This document shows positions 2,091 to 29,724 of a DNA stretch of 32,839 nt, piece by piece. A program made the position numbers and the translations under genes. Under the pieces are notes generated by a model. That model saw only the letters and a list, made by a program, of their open reading frames with translations. It was not told where the DNA came from and did not search any database. Numbering within the stretch: position 1 is the first letter of the stretch; every line of letters begins with the position of its first letter. The DNA is from Pelagophyceae sp. CCMP2097 (lineage: Eukaryota > Sar > Pelagophyceae): assembly GCA_026770575.1 (NCBI GenBank), contig MU657327.1:10034-42872 (forward strand), read 5' to 3'.

Positions 2091-3952
2091 TCATCGGATC
2101 TTCGCAGAGCCGAAGAGCCTGTTCCAATCCTCGTAGTCTGAAATCTCAGACGGCGCCACCTAGCGCGAAAGGGTTCAAGGGTATCCAGGTCGGCACGGCA
2201 GGACGCACCGAGGCGCGCGTGATTTGGAGCGCGTCCTCAAAATGCTCAAGAGAAATGGGCGGGATGAGAATTTCCCCAGCGCCTTCTTTTTTCTGGAAGA
2301 GCTGCGACCCGACCTGCCTCATCGGGCCCATGGCCGCCTCTTGGCAGAGGTTGCGGATGTCCGCGCCGGAGAAGCCCGCCTACGTGGAGCAGAGTTGGCT
2401 TGAATCGCGCAACTCGCCGGCGCGACGCGTCACCGCCTTAAGGCGCTTCTCACGGTTCGTCGCGTGAGGTCGTCGTCGAGGTCGCCCTGCGCGATGGAGT
2501 GCTTGTTCTTGCTTAGAAGAATGCCCAAGAGCTGCCTCCGCGCGGCGTCGTCTGGCAACGGCACGTAAAACCTCTTGACGAACCGCCGCCGCGCGGCCTC
2601 GTCCAACTCCTGGGGCCGGTTGGTGGCGCCGACGACTAAGAGTCTGGCCTGGTTGCCGTCGCCCGAGGAGACGCCCTCGAGCTGGACGAGGAACTCGGTC
2701 TTGATCCTGCGAGAGGCTTCGTTTTCGTTGGAGGACCTCTGCGAGAGCAAAGAGTCGACCTCGTCGATGAAGACGACTGCGGGCTCGCGGAAGTTGGCGA
2801 CGCAGAAGAGCGTGCGGACGAGCTTCTCGGACTCGCCGATCCATTTCGACATGAGGGAGGAGGCCGAGATTGAGAAAAACGTGGCGCCGCTCGAAGACGC
2901 AATCGCTCTCCCAATCAACGTCTTGCCCGTGCCCGGCGGGCCGAATAAAAGCATGCCGCGCGGCACGGCGCGCAAGCCTGTGAAGAGTTCCGGCCTTTGC
3001 ATAGGCCAGATGACCATCTCCGTAATGCTCCGTTTGGCATCGTCGAGCCCCGCAATGTCGTCAAACGTCGTCGACATGCGCTGGTCCATAATCTCCGATT
3101 CGATCCTCTTGACCAGCTCGGCGTCGCAGCCTTTGAGAGCTTCTGGGAGCTCGTCCTCGGACTTGCCGTCCTTACAAGCCTCGGGCTTCTTCTGCGCCAC
3201 ACCGTTTCGGTCCTTGCCCTTGCCCGCCTCCGGCTCGTTGGTCTTAGGGCATTTGAAGGGCTTGCGCGCGGCGCCGACTTTTTCTGGCCTGCCGCTCGCC
3301 CGCTGAAAGCCGTGCGCCGGCCGGCCGCCGTTCTCCTCGTCGTCGTTGTCGTCGTCTCGGCCACGCCGAGGTGGCGCACGCGGAGGCGCGTCCCGAGAAG
3401 GCGCTGCCGCGCGGCGGTCGTCGTCGTCTTCCGACCCCCAGCGCGACACGCCGCGCCGCGGGGCCTCGTCGCCGCGGCGGCCGTCGTCGCCGCGGACGGG
3501 CGACCGCGACCGACGCTCGTCGTCGTGCCAGCGGCCTGCGGGGCGACGCTCAGAGGCGCAGGGCCGCCGACGCCGACGGCCGCACCTTTGTCGTCGGCGC
3601 GCGGTCGCTTCGGCTCGTCGTTGGCGCGCATCATCGACGTCAGGCTGTGCTGCTTCGCGTGCGGGTCCTCGTCGCTGATGCTCCGCCGCCGAGACGCCTT
3701 GGCCGGCTCCGCCGCGGCGGCGGGCGCGGGCGCGGACGCGGGCCCGTGCTTGCGCCGCATCTCCTCGAGGAAGGTGGCGTCGAGCGGCGCGCCGCCGCAG
3801 TCCACGGGCGTCAGCTTCGGGCCGGCGGCCCACGCGGCGGCCGTGCTCTCGGCGAGGCGCCGCTCGTGCACGCGCACACGCGCGGCGTGCAGCGCGTCGC
3901 CGTCGCCGCCGCCGCGATTGCCGCGCAGCCAGTCGAACGACTCGAAATTCAT
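2091..3952 (-). CDS. FIGNL1: Fidgetin-like 1 (FIGNL1) AAA ATPase
   Basis: Proposed exons (minus strand): 3952-3586, 3535-2454, 2379-2205, 2137-2091, about 556 aa. The N-terminus begins [15 protein letters not shown] and is followed by a long Arg/Ser/Asp-rich disordered region. The AAA module has [13 protein letters not shown], Walker A (FGPPGTGKT), Walker B ([15 protein letters not shown]), the sensor [34 protein letters not shown], and a C-terminal YEDWNRLFG matching the YENWNKTFG-type tail of FIGNL1. Known family role: a hexameric ATPase that remodels RAD51 filaments in homologous recombination and limits meiotic crossovers. It is related to spastin and katanin, but the FTGLR...[18 protein letters not shown] stretch is FIGNL1-like. 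The exon 1/2 join (50-nt intron) and the last intron (donor GTCCTG at 2204) are inferred. Without the last intron the protein would stop at 2146 with an unrelated tail. Confidence 0.88.
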
Positions 3953-4106
3953 GGCCGCTGCGGGGGCCGCCGGCGCCGCCGCGCGCCCGAGCTCGCGCCT
4001 CGGCCACGCCAACGACGACGTCGACGCGAAGTTTTCAACTGGGGAATTTTCAAGAAGTTTTTCATTCCACCAACTTTCAGCGGTGAGACGCCGCGCGCGG
4101 CGATGC

Positions 4107-13329: not shown

Positions 13330-14571
13330 TTAGGGTGCAGCATTCCAGAGCCGCGCCTTTCCGTCGTAGCTCGTCGTCAAAACGTGCTTGCCGTCGGGCG
13401 AGAACGCGCAGCTCGTGACGCCTCGGGTGTGCCCCAATAACGTCGTCAGCAGCGCGCCCGTCTCGGCGTCGCAGAGCTGCACTGCTTCGTCTTCCTGGCT
13501 CGCCGTCACGAGGCGCCTGCCGTCGGGCGAGAGCGCGCAAAGCGTGCTGATCGTGCTGCGCCAGTGCCCCCCGACTGTCGTCAGCAGCGCGCCCGTCTTG
13601 GCGTCCCAGAGCCGCACCTTCCCGTCTCTGCTCACCGTCACGACGCGCTTGCCGTTGGGAGAGAACGCGGAGCTGTAGACGTTGCCAGTGCCCTCCTTCT
13701 TGAGCCTCATCTGCAGCGCGCCCGTCTCGGCGTCCCAGAGTCGCGCCGTCTTGTCGTCGCTCGCCGTCACGATGCGCTTGCCGTCGGGCGAGAACGCGCA
13801 GCAATTGACTTCGCCGATGTGACCCTCGAGCGTCGCCTGCAGCTGCAGCACGTCCGTCTCGGCGTCCCAGATCGTCTCGATGCTCCAGATCAGGGCCGTC
13901 TTGTCGTAGCTCCCCGTCATGACGCGCTCGCCGTCGGGCGAGAACGCGCAGCATGTGATCTCGTGGGTGTGCCCCGTGAGCGCCGTCAGCAGCACGCCCC
14001 ACTCGGTGTCCCAGATTAACGCAATCCTGTCCTCGGTAACCGTCACGAGGTATCTGCCGTCGGGCGACAACGCGCAGATGCAGACGAAGCCGGTGAGCCC
14101 CTCGAGCGTCAGCAGCGTGCCCGTCTCGGTGTCCCAGAGCCACGCCGTCCCGTCGTCGGTCGCCGTCGCGATGCGCGTGCAGTCGGGCGAGAGCGCGCAG
14201 CTGACGACGTAGCTGGTGTGCCCCTCGAGCGTCATCAGCAGCGCGCCCGTCTCGGCGTCCCAGAGCCGCGCCGTCCCGTCGTCGCTCGCCGTCGCGATGC
14301 GCGTGCCGTCGGGCGAGAGCGCGCAGGCGTTGACGCCGCCGGTGTGCCCCTCGAGGATCGCCGTGCCCTTGGAAATCCGGCCCTTCCACCGGTCCTCCAG
14401 GATGAGTCTGCGCAGGACCGGCGCCGCGGCCCGGGCCTCGAGAGCGACTTGCGCAGTTACGAGGGACCAGTTGGGTGATCCCGCCAGCCGAAGGATGCGT
14501 GCGCTCAGGTCGCTCTGGAGGAGCCAGAGGGCGCGGTCGGCACCGAGATCGGCGCGCGGGCGCACCTCCAT
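13330..14571 (-). CDS. WD40-repeat protein with eight near-uniform blades
   Basis: Single-exon 413-aa protein. After about 70 residues of N-terminal sequence (MEVRPRADLGADRALWLLQ) there are eight WD40 units with the core GH...V..CA(L/F)SPDG.R..TAS.D.TARLWDAETGALL. Unit 4 has an insertion (SIETIWDAETD) and units 3, 6 and 7 lack parts of the GH or WD signature. The units are very similar to each other at DNA level, which points to recent duplication or gene conversion. Similar runs occur in algal and cyanobacterial WD40 proteins and in NACHT-WD40 proteins, but no NACHT domain is visible here. The fold is a likely beta-propeller scaffold; partners are unknown. The start at 14571 was chosen because upstream codons (open to 14841) are low-complexity. 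Confidence 0.88.
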   Translation of the reverse strand: MEVRPRADLGADRALWLLQSDLSARILRLAGSPNWSLVTAQVALEARAAAPVLRRLILEDRWKGRISKGTAILEGHTGGVNACALSPDGTRIATASDDGTARLWDAETGALLMTLEGHTSYVVSCALSPDCTRIATATDDGTAWLWDTETGTLLTLEGLTGFVCICALSPDGRYLVTVTEDRIALIWDTEWGVLLTALTGHTHEITCCAFSPDGERVMTGSYDKTALIWSIETIWDAETDVLQLQATLEGHIGEVNCCAFSPDGKRIVTASDDKTARLWDAETGALQMRLKKEGTGNVYSSAFSPNGKRVVTVSRDGKVRLWDAKTGALLTTVGGHWRSTISTLCALSPDGRRLVTASQEDEAVQLCDAETGALLTTLLGHTRGVTSCAFSPDGKHVLTTSYDGKARLWNAAP

Positions 14572-14877
14572 CTTCCCTGGTTCGGACCCGCCCCGCCCTT
14601 CGCGGCCGGCGCGCGGCGGCGTTTTTTTAGCGGCGACTCGGACTTTGCGGCGGACACGCCGCGTTCCTCGCGTGGAAGTGGTCGGACTCCTTCGAGCCAC
14701 CCTCGTCTGCCCCGCGGACTCGAGCTGCTGGGAGCACTCTCCAAGGCCTCTGATGTCGACACTGATGAAAGCCCTTTTGCGCTTCGAACGGGCCCGGCAG
14801 CAACAGCGAGGGTCCTTTTCATCACGGATTATCGCGCGCATCGGCGGCGCGCGCGTGGTCGGCGGCGCGGGCCCGCC
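14572..14877. other. Short intergenic stretch between WD40 gene start and GST gene end
   Basis: The frame of the WD40 gene stays open to an ATG at 14841, but the added residues are Arg/Ser/Thr-rich and repeat-free. I see no other feature. It probably holds the WD40 promoter and the GST 3' end. Confidence 0.4.
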
Positions 14878-16608: not shown

Positions 16609-18214
16609 ATGGACGACATGTGGCGCGAGACCGAGGAGGAGGAGGACGACGACGAGTTCTTCGACGCGCAGACGGTGACGCCAGAGGCGAATGTGATCCC
16701 CGAAGTGACGGACGAAAAGCCGCCGCCGCGGCGCCGCGGCCGCGGCGACGCGCCCGCCGCGCCAGACGTCGAAGAGGAGCCCGAGCCGCCGCCGCAGCCG
16801 CGGCCGCGCCGAAGGGCCACCCAGGCCGGCGAAGGGGAAGAGGTGCGTCTCGTGGGTCTGGGCGTCCGTCTTCAAACGCGCATGCCAAATCTCTGCAGGG
16901 CGAGCTGGCTCGGCAGCGGCGCGCGTTGGTCGAGGAGCGCGAGGCACGCATGCGCGACGTGGAGAATCAGTTTGAGCGCGACGCGGCTGCCCTCGAGGCG
17001 GTGGAGGTGCTACGCGCGGCGGCGGCACGCGCGGCCGCCGGCGCCGTCGCTCTCCCCGCGTCCGTGGCGGCGCGGCGCAGCGTGGCGGTCGGCATTGACG
17101 CAACGGCGGCGATGCTGCTGTCGGATGCCATGTGCGTCTGCGGGTCGCCGTCGAAGCACGTTTGCGCGAAATGCCAAGCCCAGCGCTACTGCAGTGAGTT
17201 TTTATGATGCAAAGGCCATCTTGTGATCATGTGCTCGAAAGGCCCTATTATGCCGCTCGGGACCCGTCGACGGTCCACGATTTAGGCCGCGAGTGCCAAG
17301 TGGGCGACTGGCGCGCGCACCAGCGCGAGTGCAAACGCGCGGCCCAAGAGCGCGCTCTCGCTCTGGTCCCCGTGGCGCGCGAGCGGTGCGGGTCCTGCAG
17401 CGAGGCGCTGCCGCTCGGTGACGCGATGCACGCCTACTACGCTTGCTGCGGCAAGTCGTTGTGCGAGGGCTGCACGCGCGCGACCGTCGCCAAGCTGGCC
17501 GGTATCTGCCCCATGTGCGCGGCCGCTCTGCCGCGCAGCGACGTCGAGTACCTGCGCCTGCTCCAGCGCCGGTGCGACGACGGCGACGCCGAGGCGCAGC
17601 ACCGCCTTGGGATGAAGCACCAGCGCGGCGACTGCGGCTTGCGCCCCAACGCCAAGCGCGCCGCAGAGCTCTACGCCCTGGCCGCGCAGCAGGGATTCGC
17701 AAAGGCGCAGTGCGACCTCGCGCACATGTACCAGAGCGCCGACGGCGTCAAGCTCGACTTGGGGCGCGCGGCGGCGCACTTTGCGGCGGCGGCCCATCAG
17801 GGCGACTCCGTCGGCCAGCAGCACCTCGCCGCCATGCTCTACCAGGGCACCGGCGTGCGCAAGGACGCCAAGCGCGCCGTGCACTACTGGCGCCTCGCCG
17901 CGGCGCAGGGCGACCCTAAGGCCCAGGCGTACTTTTGCGGCGTCTGTACCATGAGAGGCGACGCCCAGGGCTTCGCATATCTTGTCCCGACCAGGTTCCT
18001 GGGCGCGTGCTACTTCAAGGGCGAGGGCGTGGAGCGCGACCTCCACGAGGCTTTGCGCCTCGTGCGCCTCGCCACGGCGGCGGGCGTCACGGGGGCGCAG
18101 AAGCACGTCGAGCGCCTCGAGGTGCGTTTCCGCGAGAAAGCGGACCCGCCGAGGCATTCCGAACGAACCGCCGTCCGAACTGCTTCCTAGGCCATCCTGT
18201 CGCGCTCGCGGTGA
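16609..18214 (+). CDS. MYND zinc finger, RING-like and Sel1-repeat protein
   Basis: Proposed exons: 16609-16842, 16899-17193, 17286-18121, and probably 18191-18214. If the last intron (GTGCGT donor at 18122) is retained, the protein stops at 18190 instead. The N-terminus is acidic then Pro/Arg-rich, followed by a short coiled segment (ARQRRALVEEREARMRDVE). The MYND finger CVCGSPSKHVCAKCQAQRYC-SRECQVGDWRAHQREC is completed exactly by removal of the 92-nt intron. Next comes a Cys-rich RING-like stretch (CGSC...CCGKSLCEGC...CPMC), then several Sel1 repeats (AEAQHRLGMKHQRG, AKAQCDLAHMYQSADGV, VGQQHLAAMLYQGTGV, LGACYFKGEGVERD). One Sel1 unit is interrupted by about 20 extra residues near 17935-17995. 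Likely a protein-protein adaptor or ubiquitin-related scaffold; related proteins form large families in some stramenopile algae. Confidence 0.87.
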
Positions 18215-18438
18215 AAAATCACTGAAATAGAGCCCAACGGCGCTTCCGCGTCTACGAAGCGGCGCGCCGGGCCCGCTCGGCGACGTTGCGCGCTGGGCGC
18301 ACGTGGCCGGGACTCCGCCGTCGGAGAGCCGCACGTAACTTACGAGTTTCCAGCGAACCGCACGCTTTGGAGGACACGTCGAGGCTTGCGTGCCACACGT
18401 AACTTAGAAGTGACGCTTCCGTGCGCGGGCGATCCTGC

Positions 18439-19029
18439 TCAGAGAGGAGCGCCGAGCGCGCCGACGGAAGCTAGAGTGTCTCGAGTCGACGGCGAGTGTC
18501 TCGAGTCGCCTCGCCGTCGCCTCTCGCAGCATGAGTGAGGGCGACTCACTGGTAAACGTCTGGAGCAGGAAGAGCGCCAAGATGAGTGAGACGTCGAACC
18601 CGAAGATGGGCGGGATGAGCCCGCGGAAGAGCTTGAGAAAGGGCTCCGTCACCGTAAAGATGGGCTGCAGCAGCGCCACGCCCTGGGCCTGCGGGAACCA
18701 GGAGAGCAGGACTCTGGCCGTGATGAGGATGTTGTACACGCCGAGGAAGTTGACCGTGCCGCCGAGCTACATGGAAAGCGAGTCGACATCGATGGGAAGC
18801 GTCGACCGCGCGGCCGTAAACACACACACGCGCTCACCACGACGGCCTCGACGACGGAGTCGCCCGGGATGACCATGTGCCGCGCCGTGGAAACGCGGCC
18901 CTGCGCCGTCGGCGCGGTGAGGGGCGAGGCGTGCGGTGAGCGCAGCGACTTGACCGGCGCAAAACCATACGACACGCCGGCGCACGCCAGCACCAATAGC
19001 GCCGACAGCGCGGCGCAGGCTCCCCTCAT
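18439..19029 (-). CDS. Plastid-targeted YggT-family membrane protein
   Basis: Proposed exons: 19029-18838, 18766-18550, 18470-18439. Phases agree, giving 146 aa. The N-terminus MRGACAALSALLVLACAGVSYGFAPV is a signal peptide ending in a GFAP site, followed by a Ser/Arg/Thr-rich transit-like stretch. A Phe at +1 after signal cleavage is the known import signature of red-lineage secondary plastids. The mature part has GGTVNFLGVYNILITARVLLSWFP, PIFTVTEPFLKLFRGLIPP and LILALFLLQTFTTSVGALG, typical YggT (YCF19-like) with two membrane spans. The final short exon was chosen because it restores the family tail; without it the reading runs into basic junk. Family role: thylakoid or membrane biogenesis in chloroplasts. 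It is transcribed away from the cyclophilin gene with 157 bp between starts. Confidence 0.87.
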
Positions 19030-19186
19030 CGTGGCGGCGGCGGCGGCGGAGTCAAGTTGATCCAGTCGACGTGAGATCGTCTCTGACTCGTTTCGGCGAG
19101 CGGAATTAGCTCTGTGTTTCAGCGATCATTCCAAAAGGTTGAGACGCACGCGCCGCCCGTGACGCCCGCGGGCCTTCTTTGTCACT

Positions 19187-19780
19187 ATGGCGGCCCGCTC
19201 TTTGCTGGCGCTGGTTTGCGCCTGCGCGGCAGCGGCGGCGCCGGCGCATTACACGGTCACGTTTGAGACGGACGGCGGCGCCATAATCGTCGCGGTGGAC
19301 CGCGATTTAGCGCCTCTCGGCGCGGACCGCCTGTACGCCACGGTCAGCGCCGGGTTTTACAACGACTCGGCGTTCTTCCGCGTCGTGCCCGGCTTCGTGA
19401 CGCAGTTTGGGATCAGCGGCTCTGCGGCTGAGAATGCGCAGTGGCTCCACTCCTCCATCGACGACGACCCCGTCCTTTCGACCAACGGCGCCGGTACTCT
19501 AGCGTTCGCCACCGAGGGCCCGAACTCGCGCACGACGCAGCTCTTCTTCAACTTGAAGAACAACGCCGTCTTGGACAGCATGGGGTTTTCGCCTTTTGGC
19601 AAGATCATTTCGGGTCTCGCAGTTGCGGAAAACATGTTCAACCCCACGCCCTCCGACGACGGCGGGGTGGACCAGCAGAGCTACGAGGAAAAAGGCAACG
19701 CCTGGGTTCGAAAGACTTTCCCGGGCATCCAGTTCATCACCGGAGCATTTGTGAAGGAAGAGACCGAGGCGACCATGTGA
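19187..19780 (+). CDS. Secretory-pathway cyclophilin-type peptidyl-prolyl isomerase
   Basis: Single-exon 197-aa protein. The signal peptide MAARSLLALVCACAAAAAPA is followed by a cyclophilin-like domain: VTFETDGGAIIVAVDRDLAPLGADRLY, FFRVVPGFVTQFGISG, GAGTLAFATEGPNSRTTQLFFNL, FSPFGKIISGLAVAENMF. The catalytic Arg of FFRVVPGF and the Gln after it are present; the F-x-x-x-Q active-site pattern is partly altered compared with cyclophilin A. Expected role: proline isomerisation during folding in the ER or endomembrane system, or in the plastid intermembrane route if the presequence is bipartite (no clear transit peptide is seen). The stop is only 42 bp from the stop of the convergent repair gene. 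Confidence 0.88.
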   Translation: MAARSLLALVCACAAAAAPAHYTVTFETDGGAIIVAVDRDLAPLGADRLYATVSAGFYNDSAFFRVVPGFVTQFGISGSAAENAQWLHSSIDDDPVLSTNGAGTLAFATEGPNSRTTQLFFNLKNNAVLDSMGFSPFGKIISGLAVAENMFNPTPSDDGGVDQQSYEEKGNAWVRKTFPGIQFITGAFVKEETEATM

Positions 19781-19822: not shown

Positions 19823-22455
19823 TCACGGCGGGTGGACCGTATTCCAAAAGTCGGTGTAGTAGTGGAACGTGGTCTTTGCGGCGGCGGCCATGTTGCGGTC
19901 GTCGGCCGAGTCGCCAACGAAAAACGCGCGAGGCTACGTTGAATCGTTCGTCGAAGAGGGGCGCGCTTCGGCAACGACGACAAAGAGCAACGTCGCGTCT
20001 CAAAAAGGAAAAGGACAAACAGTTTCAACGAAGGGCGACGCACGTCGTCCGCGGAAACGCCGAGCGCCTTGGCGGCGTGCGTCCACATGCCCGCGCCGCG
20101 CGACTTGTGGAACAAGCCGTCGTCTTTCTTCGACAGCGCGACGCAGACGAGGACGGGCAGGCCCAGGCCGCGAGTCTTGTCCGTGGCCCAGTGCTCGAGT
20201 CGGCCGCACTTTTCCGCAATCTTCCGCTTCACAACGGCGGGGTCCTTGAAGCGGTCCAGCGACTCGTTTGTCAGCACGGCGAAGGCGAAGCCGTCGCTGT
20301 GGAGTTTTTGAAGGACCGTTGGGATGTGTTTGAAGCGGTGCGCCCACGCCGCCGTCCCAGTCTCGCCAAAGTCGCGCGGGCACAAAGTCTCATCAAAGTC
20401 AAACGCCGCGAGAGCCACGTTGCCTAAGCAAGTCCGGTGGCACCCTCTCATCAGTATGAAGGGCACGGACCGGCGGCGGCGGCGTCGCCAAAGTACTTGG
20501 CGAGCAAAGAGGTGCCGTGCAGCACCCAGCCCTCCGGGACTTCGACGTCGCGGAAGAGAACCGCGCCGCCCCGCGGCTTCGAGCCGCCCGCGGGCGGCGC
20601 CGGCGGGAACGCGGCTGCGGCGGTGCGCTTCGCGGCAGGCTTCGGCGCGAAGATCGACGCCAAGCCCCCTTTCGTCGCCGACTTTGGAGCCGCGCCCGCC
20701 GCCCGCGGCCCCTGAAGCTCGAGCGAGACGACGACCTGCGCGCCACCGTTCGACTTTTGAGCGCACGTTTCATAGAGGCGACGAGCGGCGCCGCGGGGCA
20801 CGCACGCCAAAGTGGTCCGACGGCAGCAGCGGCTTGGTGAGCTGGGCGCCTACGTGTGGCTTGGTCGCGGCCCGTTGTTTAGGGCTCGTTTGTGTGCAAT
20901 CGATCGTCGCATTTACCTGTCGCCAGTCTCTTCACCACCGTCTTCTTCTCGATCTGCTTCTTGCCGACGAGTTGCAGCGCTGCCGCCGTAACGCGCTTGC
21001 CGCCCTCGTCGGCGGCGCCCAGCGACCTTGCGGGCGTAGCGCGCGCCAGGACGAGCACGCGGTCGAAGCGACTACAAATGGCGCGTCGCGGCGCGCGAGG
21101 CGGCATGGCACCTCCCTCGGCGGAACCCCGGCCTCGCAAAGCAAGCCTCACCTCTTGTATCGGTTGCCGAGCATGAGGTTCTCGACCCCGTTGTACGTAT
21201 GTTCCGAATCCTTCCGTTTCCCGCAGTCGACCCACGCGTCGGTCCAGCCTTCGCCGGCGGCCTTGAGAGCATCGCCGTCGTCGGCCTCCTTCCAATTAAA
21301 GTCGCCCATCAAGACCGCCGCGACGCAGCCGTGCCGCTGCGCCTCGGCGGAAAGCAGCTGCGTGGCCTGCGCCAACTGCGCATTGCGGTTGCGGAGCACT
21401 TCCGGCTGCTGGTCGCGGCCCACGAAGGACTCGAGGTGCGTCGAACCGAAGACGACATCTCCCACGCCAGCCTACGTCCGACGTCCGCGAGACCCTCGGC
21501 CCCCGTGCCGCCCCAGCACGCACCCAGTGCGCGCGGCCGATGAGCAGGCCGCGGCCCATGAGCGTCGCCGCGTACGGCTCCGTGCCTAGGCGCGGTCTGT
21601 TGCTACGATGGTCCCCCAGCTTGGAAAGTCCGGCGCCGCTTCGCGCGGATGCCGCAGAGCGCGCCGAGCGGTTTCCGCGTCGCGAGGCCGCAAAAGTAAG
21701 GCGCGTTCGTCTCCTGCCGCGCCTGTGGCGCGTCTGACAAGGTCGAAGCATGAGGCAAGAGGTCATGGGACAAGAGGGTGCGCACGAGCGTCCCAAAGCC
21801 GGCGCGGCTCAGCGCCGCCGCCAGGAGCCCGTCCGTCTCGTGCCTGTGCAGGAGGATCCGCGACGCAGCTTTGAGGGCGTGCGACGCACGTGAGTTCCTG
21901 CAAAGCGACGACCGCGGCGCCGGCCTCGTCGATGATGCGCGAAATGGCCGCCATCCTGTCCGGAAACGTCTCCGGGTACTCGAACCAGACGTTGTACGTC
22001 AGCGCCTTGACCGCCTAGGCCGTCTGGCCTCGGGCACAGACAGCGGAAGCGCGGGTGCGCACCGTCGGCGCTTCGTTGGCTGTAGGCTTCGCGTCGCCAA
22101 ACTCCGCCGCCTTGAGTTTGCGGACCGCCGCGAGCTGCTCCATGATGCTGCCAGGCGCCGCCAGAGCACGCTGCGGCGCAGGCGCGGGGGCGGCTTCCCT
22201 GCGGGGCGCGTTGGCGTCGGCTTTGTTCTGCTCCGCGCGGAGGCCGCGGATCGCGGCGAGGTCGTGCGTCGCGGGCGCGTCGTTGGAGAGGAAGGCGTCG
22301 GCGGCGCTCTGAACGGTGCGGTGGACCGTGAGGAGTTGTCTCGCGGTGGCGGGGGAGCACCCGGTGAAGGCCTGCAGAGTCGAAACATCAAGCTGCAGCG
22401 CCGCAGCGTCGCGCTGCGGCGCATCGTCGTCCGCAGTCAGGTCGATGGGATCCAT
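19823..22455 (-). CDS. Putative fusion: UBA-like, TDP2-type phosphodiesterase and PNKP-type 3'-phosphatase
   Basis: Proposed exons: 22455-22063, 22014-21890, 21843-21665, 21585-21524, 21471-21152, 21071-20917, 20849-20806, 20735-20471, 20423-20044, 19933-19823. Phases all close, giving 677 aa. Residues about 20-70 resemble a UBA-like helix bundle (LQAFTGCSPATARQLLTVH). The EEP domain follows with LTYNVWF, ALQEL, STHLES, MGDFNW, GNRYKSRFDRVL and SDHFG (about 137-426), the TDP2 order of catalytic motifs. The exon after SDHFG begins VVVSLELQ, the expected last EEP strand, and runs on through an Ala/Pro-rich linker into an HAD phosphatase (FDFDETL about 522, LTNES about 565, GAGMW, GDSADD about 648) of PNK3P type. 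Family roles: TDP2 removes 5'-tyrosyl topoisomerase-2 adducts and PNK3P removes 3'-phosphates. If unspliced at 20805, TDP2 would end about 15 residues after SDHFG. Confidence 0.8.
21586..21664 (-). other. Probable GC-AG intron in the TDP2-phosphatase gene
   Basis: Joining CTCG|GCGCGC to CGCCTAG|GC gives RKPLGTEPYAATLMGRGLL, matching the TDP2 region before MGRGLL. The only GT in the 3' part of exon 3 and the unspliced stretch leaves a 20-nt intron, which is too short, and no upstream GT gives the right phase. The 79-nt length suits this genome. Confidence 0.5.
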
Positions 22456-26080: not shown

Positions 26081-27930
26081 TTAGTTAGCGACGGCGGGTG
26101 CCGCGACGGCGGGTGCCGCGCGCGGCGACCTTCTGTCGGCGCCATCGGGCGCGGCGGCGGCGGCGGTCGCGGGCGCCATGCCGGGCGCGGCGGCGGGCGC
26201 CATCTCGAGGAGGACGTCCTTCAAAGCGCCGTTCTCGGGAGCGTCGGGCTGCAGCAGCGCTGCGGACCCGCGCTGGTGCGCGGAGACGCTGGCGCCGCGG
26301 CAAAAGGCGGCAAACTCCTTCAAAGAGACGGCGTTGCTGCCGTCCGAGTCCATGCAGTCGAAGACTGCGTCGAGGTCAGCATCAGTCACGGACGCGGCCA
26401 CCCCAATTTTGCGCCGCAGCACGATGGCCCACTCGTCGCGCGTGACGACGTTGTTGGCGTCCAAATCCAGCAATTTGAAGCACTTGTAGTAGTTGACTTG
26501 CGAGGGATTGAACAAATTGATGTCACCCGGCCGTACAGCCGCCATACAAGCTTCACCCAGCCTTTGTGTAATGTACCAAAGGATCAAATGCACGCGGTCC
26601 ATGTTGCGCGGCGGCGGCGTCCGCGCAGAGCCGCCCGCCGGCGCGGAGAGGTGCGGGACCTCCTTTAAGCCGATCGCGTCGGACGCGCTCGACCGGAAAG
26701 CGTATAAGAGCTGATCCGAAGGCCCGGCGTCGCGTAAAGACCCGACGCCGTTGCCGTTGTTTAAAGCTGCAGCAGATCCGAGCTCGAAGCTGGAGGACTG
26801 CATGCCGCGCGCAAAAGCGCAGAATTCCTGCAGAGTTAAAGAGCCGTCTCTATTCACATCGATGCTCTCAAAAATCACGTTCAGCTCGGCATCCGCAATC
26901 TCGGCCTGCGTGATGGCGCAGAGGCGCCGGATCGCGAGTCGGAATTCCGCAGCGTCCAACACTTGCGATAAGTCCAAATCCAATGCCTTGTACATACGCT
27001 GGTAAGAAACCGTGGCCGGGTGGTAGCGCGTGCCAAAGCCCGACGACCCGGCGTCGCCGCGGAGGCCGATGAGCTGCGCAAGCTTATACAGGATCAGCCC
27101 GGCACCATTTAGCCCCGCGGGCGTTTTCATGCTGCCGATCAGCGACCCTCGGTTGCCGCCCTGGCCGCTCAAACCCTTACCCTCCGCCGCGCTCGCCGCC
27201 GTCTCCGCGGTGTTGCTCCCGCGCCGTTGCGAAGCGTCCGACGGCCGCCGGTCGCGCGACGACGTGTCCGACGGCCGCCGTTCGCGCGATGACCGCGGAG
27301 GCGCCGAGTCCCGCGAAGAACGCTTCGCCGCGTCCGCCTTGGGCGGCTGCTTGGGCGCCGCCGCCTGCGGCAGCGCCGCCACCTCCGGCAGCGGCGCCGG
27401 CGCCGGGCCCGGTGCGTTTTCGGCCACGTGCGCGTCCTTGGCCGGCGCGGCCTCTATGGACGGCGCTGCCTCCTTGGGCGCCGCCGCTTCGGCGCCCTGC
27501 TTGCGCGAAATGACTTGCGCGACGTCGGAAGCCTTCGCTTTCCCATCTGTCTTGGCCACGGTCTCCCAAAGGCTATCGTCAAACGAAAACCCCTCGCCGA
27601 GGCAGTCGACGACGTCCTTGCGCGCCAGGTACGCGTCGCCCTACAAATCGCGCGTCGGCGCGGGGGAAGAAACGCAATCGCACGCGGCGCGCCCGGTAAG
27701 CGGCTGAGGGACAGATCCTTTTTCGACTCGCCCTCGAACGAAAGCCCCATCGACGGCTCGCGCCGCCCCAGCGGGAGGCTCGCCGGCGCGCCGCGGCGCG
27801 GCGTCCGGTGGGCGACAGGGGTTTCGCCCGTCGTGGTAGCTTCCAAGGTTCGACCCAGGCGACCCAAAGGATGACGGACGCCGGCGGGGCGCACCCTGGC
27901 CTCGAAGCTCTTTGCGGCGCCGGCGCCCAT
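26081..27930 (-). CDS. Four EF-hand calcium-binding protein with possible N-myristoylation
   Basis: Proposed exons: 27930-27691 and 27640-26081, giving 599 aa. The N-terminus MGAGAAKS fits a Gly-2 myristoylation signal, which is inference. A long Ala/Pro/Lys-rich and then Ser/Arg-rich linker contains two repeats of (S)SRDRRPSD type. Two paired EF-hand modules follow: DLDLSQVLDAAEF with DVNRDGSLTLQEF, and DLDANNVVTRDEW with DSDGSNAVSLKEF. Only the second hand has a fully canonical 12-residue loop; the others lack one or more acidic ligands. Between the pairs is LILWYITQRLGEAC, similar to LILYKLAQLIGLR before the first pair, so the protein is an internal duplication of a helix plus EF-pair unit. 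It is probably a calcium sensor. The exon join requires a GC donor. Confidence 0.75.
27641..27690 (-). other. Probable GC-AG intron in the EF-hand gene
   Basis: SRLPG|GCGCCG...TTTGTAG|GDAYLARKDV keeps frame with a 50-nt intron. The GT donor seven bases further on (C|GTGCGA) is in the wrong phase for this acceptor. A missed small exon is an alternative. Confidence 0.4.
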
Positions 27931-28165
27931 GGCAGCGAGTCAGCCCGCGTCGAAAGACGTGGGGTGAGGGTGAGGGTTTTAATTTAAACCCCGGGGAGAC
28001 GACAAGAACTCTCAGAGAGCCACGTGCAGATCAAGAGGTCCTAGGCCTGCGCAGGAGCTGGGGTAGTCACGAGGGTTGACGGAACCTTCTGTTTAACGTT
28101 TACTGAACTCTCTCTCAAATTCGCCAAAATTAGCAAGCAATGAAAGTATTTTGTGTGTATTTTTA

Positions 28166-28680
28166 GACAGGTTCACTTTATTTAACTTGTTCAGAACTCG
28201 TTCAGAAAATGACAAATACACAGCTCAGAACAGTTCTGAACTGGTTAAAAAAAGGCCGAAATATGAACTCAGAGTTCAGTTCAAGTTAACCAGTTCAGAA
28301 CTAGCTCTAAACTGAGAAAACCCGCGTCCTCCTCCCGCGTCGCCCTCGGCGCCGGCGCGGGGGCCAAAGGGTTTGCCATCCTCGTCACCGTCAAGCAGCG
28401 ACCCGCAAATGTGGCTGTCTCAATTGTTCAAAACATTAAAAATAAATTTAGTGAGAATTTGTTCAAATCTAGATCAGGTTCGAAATGCCGGTGGGATTCG
28501 AACCGGCTCACCTAGATTTCGATGGGACGTGACTGCAATCGCCAAAATAAAGATGATAAAATGCCGTCGCCTCCGGGGCTGAACTCAAAGTGCAAATACG
28601 ATTTCTGAACTCTTCTGAACTAACGCCTTAACTCGCATTTGCGTATGAGTTCTGAACTGGTTAAATAAAGTGAACCTGTC
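28166..28680. mobile_element. 515-bp non-autonomous inverted-repeat element (MITE-like) with TA duplication
   Basis: The left end GACAGGTTCACTTTATTTAAC continues to TTCAGAACTC. The reverse complement of the right end is the same over about 34 bp with two mismatches. Both ends are flanked by TA (28164-28165 and 28681-28682), which suggests a Tc1/mariner-type TA target duplication. The interior has further nested inverted copies of AGTTCTGAACTGGTTAA (about 28237 and 28294) and no transposase. A perfect Pol III B box (GGTTCGAATCC on the minus strand) lies at 28494-28504. Confidence 0.8.
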
Positions 28681-28855
28681 TATTACAAGAGCGCGCCGGA
28701 GGCACACGGAGGACCCGAAGGATACAGCCAAATCCCATTGCAATGCCCACGTAAATAATTGAAATTATTTAACTAATCGCTGAACTTTCAAATCCTCCTT
28801 ATCTTTATTTTTATTATTTTATTTCTTATTGAGCTATTTATTTTTTCTTTTTTTT

Positions 28856-28929
28856 GCGGCCGACCAGATTCGAACCTGTGACCAAAAACTTCTTCTATGA
28901 TGATTCCAATGAGGCTCCTGCTCGACCGC
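28856..28929 (-). ncRNA. tRNA-like sequence or tRNA-derived element
   Basis: On the minus strand this 74-nt sequence starts GCGGTCG and ends CGGCCGC, which pair as a 7-bp acceptor stem with one G-T wobble. It contains a TpsiC-loop-like GGTTCGAATC with a partly mismatched stem and an A-box-like AGCAGG. I could not fold convincing D and anticodon arms, and there is no intact anticodon call. The 3' flank on that strand is A-rich rather than T-rich, which fits a tRNA-derived retroposed copy better than an active gene. Confidence 0.4.
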
Positions 28930-29029
28930 AACTCCCAATTTTAGCAATCGCATCAACCACCAATCGCTAAATCGGCCGAGTTGCTGTTTTTTTCTTCCCA
29001 GAGGTGGAACCTCACGGATGGACCCGGCG

Positions 29030-29081
29030 ACGGACAGACAGACAGACAGACAAACGGACAGACAGACGGAGAGACAGACAT
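29030..29081. repeat. GACA/GACG microsatellite
   Basis: Runs of GACAGACA with a few CAAACG and CGGAGA interruptions over about 50 bp. Confidence 0.85.
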
Positions 29082-29724
29082 AATTGCCCCAAGTAATCCT
29101 TCAATCAAAGGACCCGAAGGGCCCTGACCGTAAACTGACGTTGATCAAACGGTGCAGTCCCCTTCGGGGCCTGAATTATGCAATGAATCTCCCTGCGAGC
29201 GCCGCCAATCTACATGGGAGATGCACACTGCACCCAATGTCGCTTTTCGGATTATAAATTAAAACCCTCATGCCTCATGAATTGCGTCATCATTGGAATT
29301 CTGTGGCTGCAAATATTTCACAGATCCTTGCAAATATTCCCAGATCGTTCTTGTCCACCCATTTTCTAATACGAAGCTAGACAAATATGTCCCGAATCTT
29401 TGGATTACTAGGATTCCTAGTACTAGTGTACTTACTTTTTTTTGAAATGAACTCGGGCGAGTCTCGCGGTACGCTTCCCTTCCCCATCGTGACAGAACTT
29501 GAGAATCTTATCTGTTTGCTTTCCCCGAGCCGAGCGGTGCGCTCTGAATACCCCGATGGGCACAATAACAACCTCTTTTGGAACAGCTTGGCACGATGGG
29601 ACGTTTGCCCGACTTTGGGCCAGTGGTGTTACAGAGTTATCGTACAGAGGCCGGGGCTGTAGTGCGAACACGCACTCGCTGTGGCGCCTTGTTGCGTAGG
29701 GAAGCGCGTGGCGCCAGCAGCTAT

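Follow-up and report, generated by a model that had tools for sequence, protein, structure and literature searches.

The DNA considered here is a 32,839-nucleotide (nt) stretch from Pelagophyceae sp. CCMP2097, an Arctic alga (assembly GCA_026770575.1, contig MU657327.1, positions 10,034 to 42,872). We refer to this whole stretch as "the window." On its minus strand, from 22455 down to 19823, lies a gene whose eleven exons, joined in frame by splice reconstruction, encode a protein of 662 amino acids (aa). From the N terminus, this protein comprises a sequence resembling a SUMO-interacting motif (SIM), a UBA domain, an EEP domain of the TDP2 type, a flexible linker bearing a PCNA-binding-like motif, and, finally, a HAD phosphatase domain of the PNKP type. 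A preliminary description, made from the DNA letters, had proposed a single-gene fusion of TDP2-type and PNKP-type enzymes, and the reading frame, both domains, and the key splice join bear this out. We consider it probable that the gene encodes one DNA-end-cleaning protein, in which a TDP2 EEP domain and a kinase-less PNKP-type phosphatase are recruited together via SUMO, ubiquitin, and PCNA.

Exon 1 (22063..22455) contains the start codon, the SIM-like motif, the UBA domain, and two LAA[IV]RxL motifs. Exon 2 (21890..22014) encodes the first EEP strand, YNVWF, and the metal-site QE. It is followed by exon 3 (21786..21843; placed by splice reconstruction and the deposited protein described below), exon 4 (21647..21722), exon 5 (21524..21585; MGRGLL), exon 6 (21152..21471; THLES, GDFNW, and TYNGVEN), exon 7 (20917..21071; RFDR), and exon 8 (20806..20849; PSDHFG). 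The linker lies in exon 9 (20471..20735), exon 10 (20044..20423) encodes DFDETL, LTNES, and FHK, and exon 11 (19823..19933) ends the protein with VGDSADD and a TGA stop codon. The introns are 46 to 110 nt long, nine being GT-AG and one GC-AG (intron 4, 21646-21586), and six of the ten share the donor GTGCGY. On the exon 4 side of intron 4, the open frame is kept by seven GC donors and by no GT donor; GCGCGA was chosen among the seven for its likeness to the common donor. The resulting prediction preceded retrieval of the deposited CCMP2097 protein "Endonuclease/exonuclease/phosphatase," with which it agrees in every letter. The ten exons and 677 aa given in the preliminary description were therefore slightly off. 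According to PMC9756366, the CCMP2097 genome was annotated with the JGI pipeline and that stranded poly(A)+ RNA-seq was made.

The key join, 20806|20735, removes the 70-nt intron 8 (20736..20805), with borders GTGCGTGC..GCGCGCAG, and carries the frame from SDHFG into VVVSLEL, as had been claimed. Homologous proteins align across this position: SDHFG|VVVSLEL in the window corresponds to SDHFGVQITL in P0003, SDHFGVEVTL in P0008, and SDHFGICATL in P0010. A predicted structure (pTM 0.57) places a strand, aa 411-419, over the join; its input alignment combined seven fusions with 22 of the 69 single TDP2s and eight of the 36 other PNK3P proteins.

Both domains lie far above chance and exceed their Pfam cut-offs in the profile search that had been suggested as a check: PF03372 (EEP) with an E-value of 7.8e-12, and PF08645 (PNK3P) with 8.8e-10, the latter scoring 39 bits against a cut-off of 22. 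In a profile comparison with known structures, the EEP half matches TDP2 at 1.4e-18 to 8e-15, and the next EEP structure follows at 4e-4. TDP2 also fills the top 22 places among the 50 matches listed in a fold search. Profile, fold search, and catalytic residues thus agree on a TDP2-type EEP half. Because the EEP half fills the fold search, the check on the phosphatase half relied solely on sequence profiles. It matches PNKP in the PDB at 9.4e-9 and, by hhalign, a set of 30 PNKP phosphatase domains (99.7%, 8.7e-26), in agreement with Pfam on a PNKP-type domain. For the hhalign comparison, domain ranges were cut with a profile made from the fusions, and the set comprised 32 kinase-bearing rows minus P0107, which the profile did not match, and P0087, which has 112 residues. 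Across the 662 aa, no FHA or 5'-kinase domain is matched by Pfam up to an E-value of 1, and the protein ends after the HAD domain.

HAD phosphatases share a recognizable list of motifs, and the aspartates, threonine or serine, and lysine within them have assigned roles in PNKP. The HAD motifs DxDxT, S/T-N, K, and GDxxxD are present in all seven fusion proteins described below, which conserve D508, D510, T512, N552, K606, D634, and D638 (window numbering), with serine or threonine at 551. The EEP half is equally constant: N139, E171, H250, D295, N297, R346, D348, S407, D408, and H409 are found in 7/7 fusions. We place H409 in the TDP2 catalytic quartet through its SDH motif. In human TDP2 this quartet is N120, E152, D262, and H351, as given in PMC11369425. 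The other equivalents, N139, E171, and D295, were placed by alignments and, together with H409, are kept in every fusion.

The same fusion occurs elsewhere. The preliminary description had named homologues that always occur as two genes as an outcome that would speak against a fusion; searches of public sequence data refute this outcome, as they yielded six further fusion genes. There are at least seven distinct genes: the window's own (P0001), that of the green alga Cymbomonas tetramitiformis (P0002), P0003, P0006, P0008, P0009, and P0010. A first protein search (E ≤0.001) returned five proteins, namely the window's own, two more fusions, and two long membrane-type EEP proteins. An alignment search then returned 76 proteins, seven with both domains and 69 without PNK3P among their listed Pfam domains; the named organisms among the 69 are one plant (Typha) and others that we take to be diatoms. 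Since this search scored only the 7998 candidates sharing the most words, and did not return P0001 itself, the fusion count is a lower bound. P0007 shares identical stretches with the Cymbomonas protein, was therefore judged to be a duplicate model of that gene, and was left out of trees and motif counts. The other fusions are 39-45% identical to the window protein across aligned parts. Three are only 501-502 aa long, and their linkers span 25-26 residues. P0003 is 87% like P0006, and the two may be closely related; the P0006 gene sits on a 46-kb contig. No record with both domains derived from MMETSP appeared in the alignment search, in which the recognizable MMETSP records (P0016, P0024, and P0040) have TDP2 only or no listed domain. 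Likewise, no fusion from Aureococcus or Pelagomonas is named in the homologue results, which is not evidence of absence. A viral origin was considered and rejected: 154 viral-contig stretches matched, by two peptide patterns only, and none encodes a relative by tblastn. Among PNK3P proteins of other architectures, P0082 and P0083 list PNK3P, PF13671, and an aprataxin-like HIT domain in one protein.

In a phosphatase-domain tree of 41 rows, the seven fusions lie on one side of a branch with 97/81 support, and P0080, which has PNK3P and no EEP domain, is the nearest non-fused protein, joined to them at 100/100. This tree omits P0107 and P0087, for the reasons given above, and the P0080 range was set by hand. 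In an EEP-domain tree of 76 rows, the seven fusions and the single-domain P0011 are held together by an SH-aLRT value of 95. P0011 may be a true single TDP2 or a cut-off model. The simplest reading is one fusion origin followed by descent or transfer.

The regions outside the two enzymes carry putative targeting sequences. The UBA_4 domain (aa 24-59; 22279..22386, minus strand) scores 23.9 bits against a Pfam cut-off of 21.8 (E 3.6e-5) and is helical in the predicted structure. Ahead of it, IDLTADDD (aa 4-11; 22423..22446, minus strand) fits a [VI]DL-acidic pattern that we take to be SIM-like. This pattern occurs in five of six fusion N termini (shuffle mean, 0.14), with 0/2000 shuffles as high; the count omits P0003, whose N terminus was cut to one residue by the domain envelope. 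The linker sequence KGGLASIFAP (aa 433-442; 20643..20672, minus strand) lies in a low-confidence part of the predicted structure, and we assign it as a PCNA-binding-like (PIP-like) motif. Copies in other linkers, such as ALDSFFKP and INPFFSP, with basic residues after them, seem to us to resemble the motifs through which UNG2 and DNA ligase I bind PCNA. The pattern [FI]FxP is found in 6/7 fusions (shuffle mean, 0.08); a more stringent one, [LIMV]xx[FIY][FY], is found in 4/7 (shuffle mean, 0.07), again with 0/2000 shuffles as high for either. Since the patterns were written after the sequences had been inspected, these counts should be read as a measure of conservation and do not amount to a blind test. 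The [VI]DL-acidic pattern also occurs in 37 of 64 single-TDP2 N termini (shuffle mean, 1.31; 0/2000 shuffles as high; five of the 69 single TDP2s, with N termini of ≤15 residues, are not in the count), although these copies are not independent, as close relatives are included; it may be a common SUMO-reading route for TDP2s without PNK3P (P0011-P0079; those named are chiefly diatoms). A further motif, resembling DxLAAIRKLRxxQ, precedes the EEP domain in P0001 (within 22455-22063), P0002, P0006, P0008, P0009, and P0011, with at most two copies by pattern and more in P0009 by eye.

TDP2 and PNKP are usually two distinct proteins and have been studied as such, united by scaffolds. Like TDP2, the fusion has a UBA domain followed by an EEP domain, the catalytic residues, and the best structural match; unlike TDP2, it has a phosphatase at the C terminus, a SIM-like motif at the N terminus, and a linker with PCNA-binding-like sequence. 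It shares the PNK3P domain and motifs of PNKP/Pnk1; unlike these, it has no FHA or kinase domain found by Pfam and is joined to TDP2 instead. The 3'-phosphatases ZDP of plants and Tpp1 of yeast also lack a kinase, and in this respect the fusion is like them; ZDP carries PARP-type zinc fingers and no TDP2 domain. P0080, a protein in ENA, combines PNK3P with a PF10283 zinc finger, presumably of the PBZ type, and has no kinase and no EEP domain. The title of PDB entry 5tvq states that the catalytic domain of mouse Tdp2 binds SUMO2. Among titles and abstract openings of open-licence papers in PubMed Central, a set that leaves subscription papers and preprints outside, no TDP2-PNKP or TDP2-PNK3P fusion is described. 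Both enzymes are already known; what is new is their conserved combination, accompanied by putative targeting motifs.

The EEP domain would hydrolyze the 5'-phosphotyrosyl links left by topoisomerase II, yielding a 5'-phosphate, and the HAD domain would remove 3'-phosphates, yielding a 3'-OH. Sources of 3'-phosphates include TDP1 acting on topoisomerase I links, beta,delta-lyases, and oxidation. With both domains on one protein, one recruited molecule could leave both break termini ready for ligation; recruitment would be through SUMO or ubiquitin on a trapped topoisomerase and through PCNA at forks. Direct observation covers the gene structure, the domains, the catalytic residues, and the conserved fusion, along with a predicted structure; both activities, their substrates, the binding partners, and any coordination are inferred.

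Other explanations of the locus and of its product can be weighed against this one. That gene prediction merged two adjacent genes is very improbable. Several GC-rich frames are open at the locus, and the phosphatase core has an in-frame ATG at 20451, yet this ATG, the single one in that open frame upstream of and in frame with the DxDxT motif, falls within intron 9. Exon 9, in turn, encodes both the final strand of the EEP fold and the beginning of the phosphatase domain, each of them conserved. Because this one exon spans both domains and the ATG is intronic, a separate downstream phosphatase gene appears unlikely. The same join is found in six other distinct genes, including the three compact proteins with short linkers, and on these three grounds we reject two separate genes.

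Alternatively, the EEP half may have drifted to another TDP2-like task, acting on 3'-blocking groups or on RNA or protein links, with the fusion serving as a general 3'-end cleaner in which this half works with the phosphatase. This is improbable given that TDP2 structures are the nearest, well ahead of others, and that the protein has kept HLES, its RxDR motif, and the catalytic residues. There is similarly a small chance that the phosphatase half acts on a substrate other than 3'-phosphate DNA ends or serves as a binding module. The three fusions scanned all miss the TIGR01664 DNA 3'-phosphatase equivalog cut-off, and the "GDAAGR" loop of PNKP is shortened to "GDSxxD" in 6/7 fusions. However, the HAD catalytic positions are retained in all seven, the PNK3P gathering score is passed by 8/8 records, and the Cymbomonas copy, which keeps GDAAGR, reaches 75.5 bits.

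Several points weigh against a SUMO-, ubiquitin-, and PCNA-recruited protein that cleans both ends. A topoisomerase II break already bears a 3'-OH, and the two activities therefore need not act on the same break. Divergence is marked in the phosphatase half: against the TIGR01664 cut-off of 107.65 bits (NCBIfam), the window protein scores 39.9, Cymbomonas 85.6, and P0010 46.5, and the phosphatase substrate is consequently the least certain step. With its pTM value, the structural model does not give the relative placement of the EEP and phosphatase domains. The UBA domain is above the Pfam cut-off in just two of the seven fusions (P0001 and P0009), whereas P0002 and P0008 fall slightly short of it and Pfam finds no UBA domain in P0003, P0006, and P0010. 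The canonical PIP box, QxxhxxFF/Y, is not matched by KGGLASIFAP in the window, where the motif is degenerate (GLASIFAP, with Ile-Phe and without the usual first Gln), and the Cymbomonas linker has no PCNA-like motif in the pattern count over seven linkers. The evidence for the gene model is drawn from genomic sequence and the deposited protein. Lastly, the EEP-tree branch of the fusions alone has an SH-aLRT value of 3, with P0011 inside the unresolved set; a single fusion origin is therefore not shown by the EEP half, and good support for it comes from the phosphatase half alone.

The CCMP2097 genome as searched here has 66.2 Mb in 638 contigs, with the fusion gene on C163. The figures in PMC9756366 are 85.8 Mb and 1716 scaffolds; the genome searched is thus smaller or another version. 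Six-frame searches of this kind may miss genes with many short exons. The sole PNK3P match in the genome searched is the fusion locus, and no second PNK3P was found there; P0001 as a query matches at this locus alone, in ten pieces. There are 22 matches to PF03372, among which only the fusion locus scores at E ≤0.01 on the fusion EEP profile. A broader TDP2 profile gives the fusion locus 96.2 bits, C119 20.6, and C17 14.6. C119 was rejected as a second TDP2 on its score and its YNVLSSHL sequence, and looks CCR4-like to us by motif. The TDP2-only query P0024 matches the fusion locus and one weak place, C46:81923 (E 0.005), which was also rejected as it contains 0/11 TDP2/EEP motif strings. TDP1 was found once in the genome searched.

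Mammalian PNKP (P0089) matches three places, two on C31 and one on C175, all with residues 363-437 of its kinase part. At G000:C31:410434-412886 (L043, L044), a 593-aa open frame encodes a Y-family polymerase and the start of a kinase-like domain (PF00817, 4.7e-41; PF11799; PF13671, 1.6e-6), with a PCNA-like SKITNFFA between the two. Downstream, another frame encodes the remainder of the kinase-like domain together with SHTLDRYFAP and a segment resembling a zinc finger on visual inspection, with none in Pfam; a second kinase-like copy lies ~2 kb further on. This is a possible polymerase-kinase fusion gene, and because the frame joins the two domains, a different repair gene may carry the kinase half of PNKP. 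A bolder and rather doubtful proposal is that PNKP has been dismantled in these algae, its phosphatase having joined TDP2 and its kinase having been attached to a Y-family translesion polymerase, with the TDP2 fusion being SUMO-, ubiquitin-, and PCNA-guided and readying both topoisomerase-linked ends in one visit.

The presence of the fusion in a pelagophyte and in the distant Cymbomonas suggests that coupling TDP2 to a phosphatase is useful by itself. The fusion offers a single polypeptide in which to ask whether 5'-tyrosyl and 3'-phosphate removal are coordinated, and its recurring SIM-like and PCNA-like motifs lead to testable predictions on the recruitment of TDP2 to trapped topoisomerases.

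Elsewhere in the window, a cyclophilin-type isomerase frame (19163-19780, plus strand) converges on the fusion gene, with 42 bases between the stops. Pfam identifies a DEAD-box helicase (439-1857), an AAA ATPase (2433-4034), Sel1 repeats (17198-18187), a YGGT protein (18407-18766), and an EF-hand protein (26084-27640). No match to Rfam (at gathering thresholds) or by ARAGORN was found across the window. At 13330-14877 (minus strand), a WD40-repeat protein has repeats alike enough to appear as DNA tandem repeats of ~126-129 nt. A low-G+C block at 28100-29450 (44% in 28001-29000 and 53% in the next kilobase, versus 61-74% elsewhere) contains a MITE-like 45-nt inverted repeat (28164-28208 and 28638-28682, 87%).
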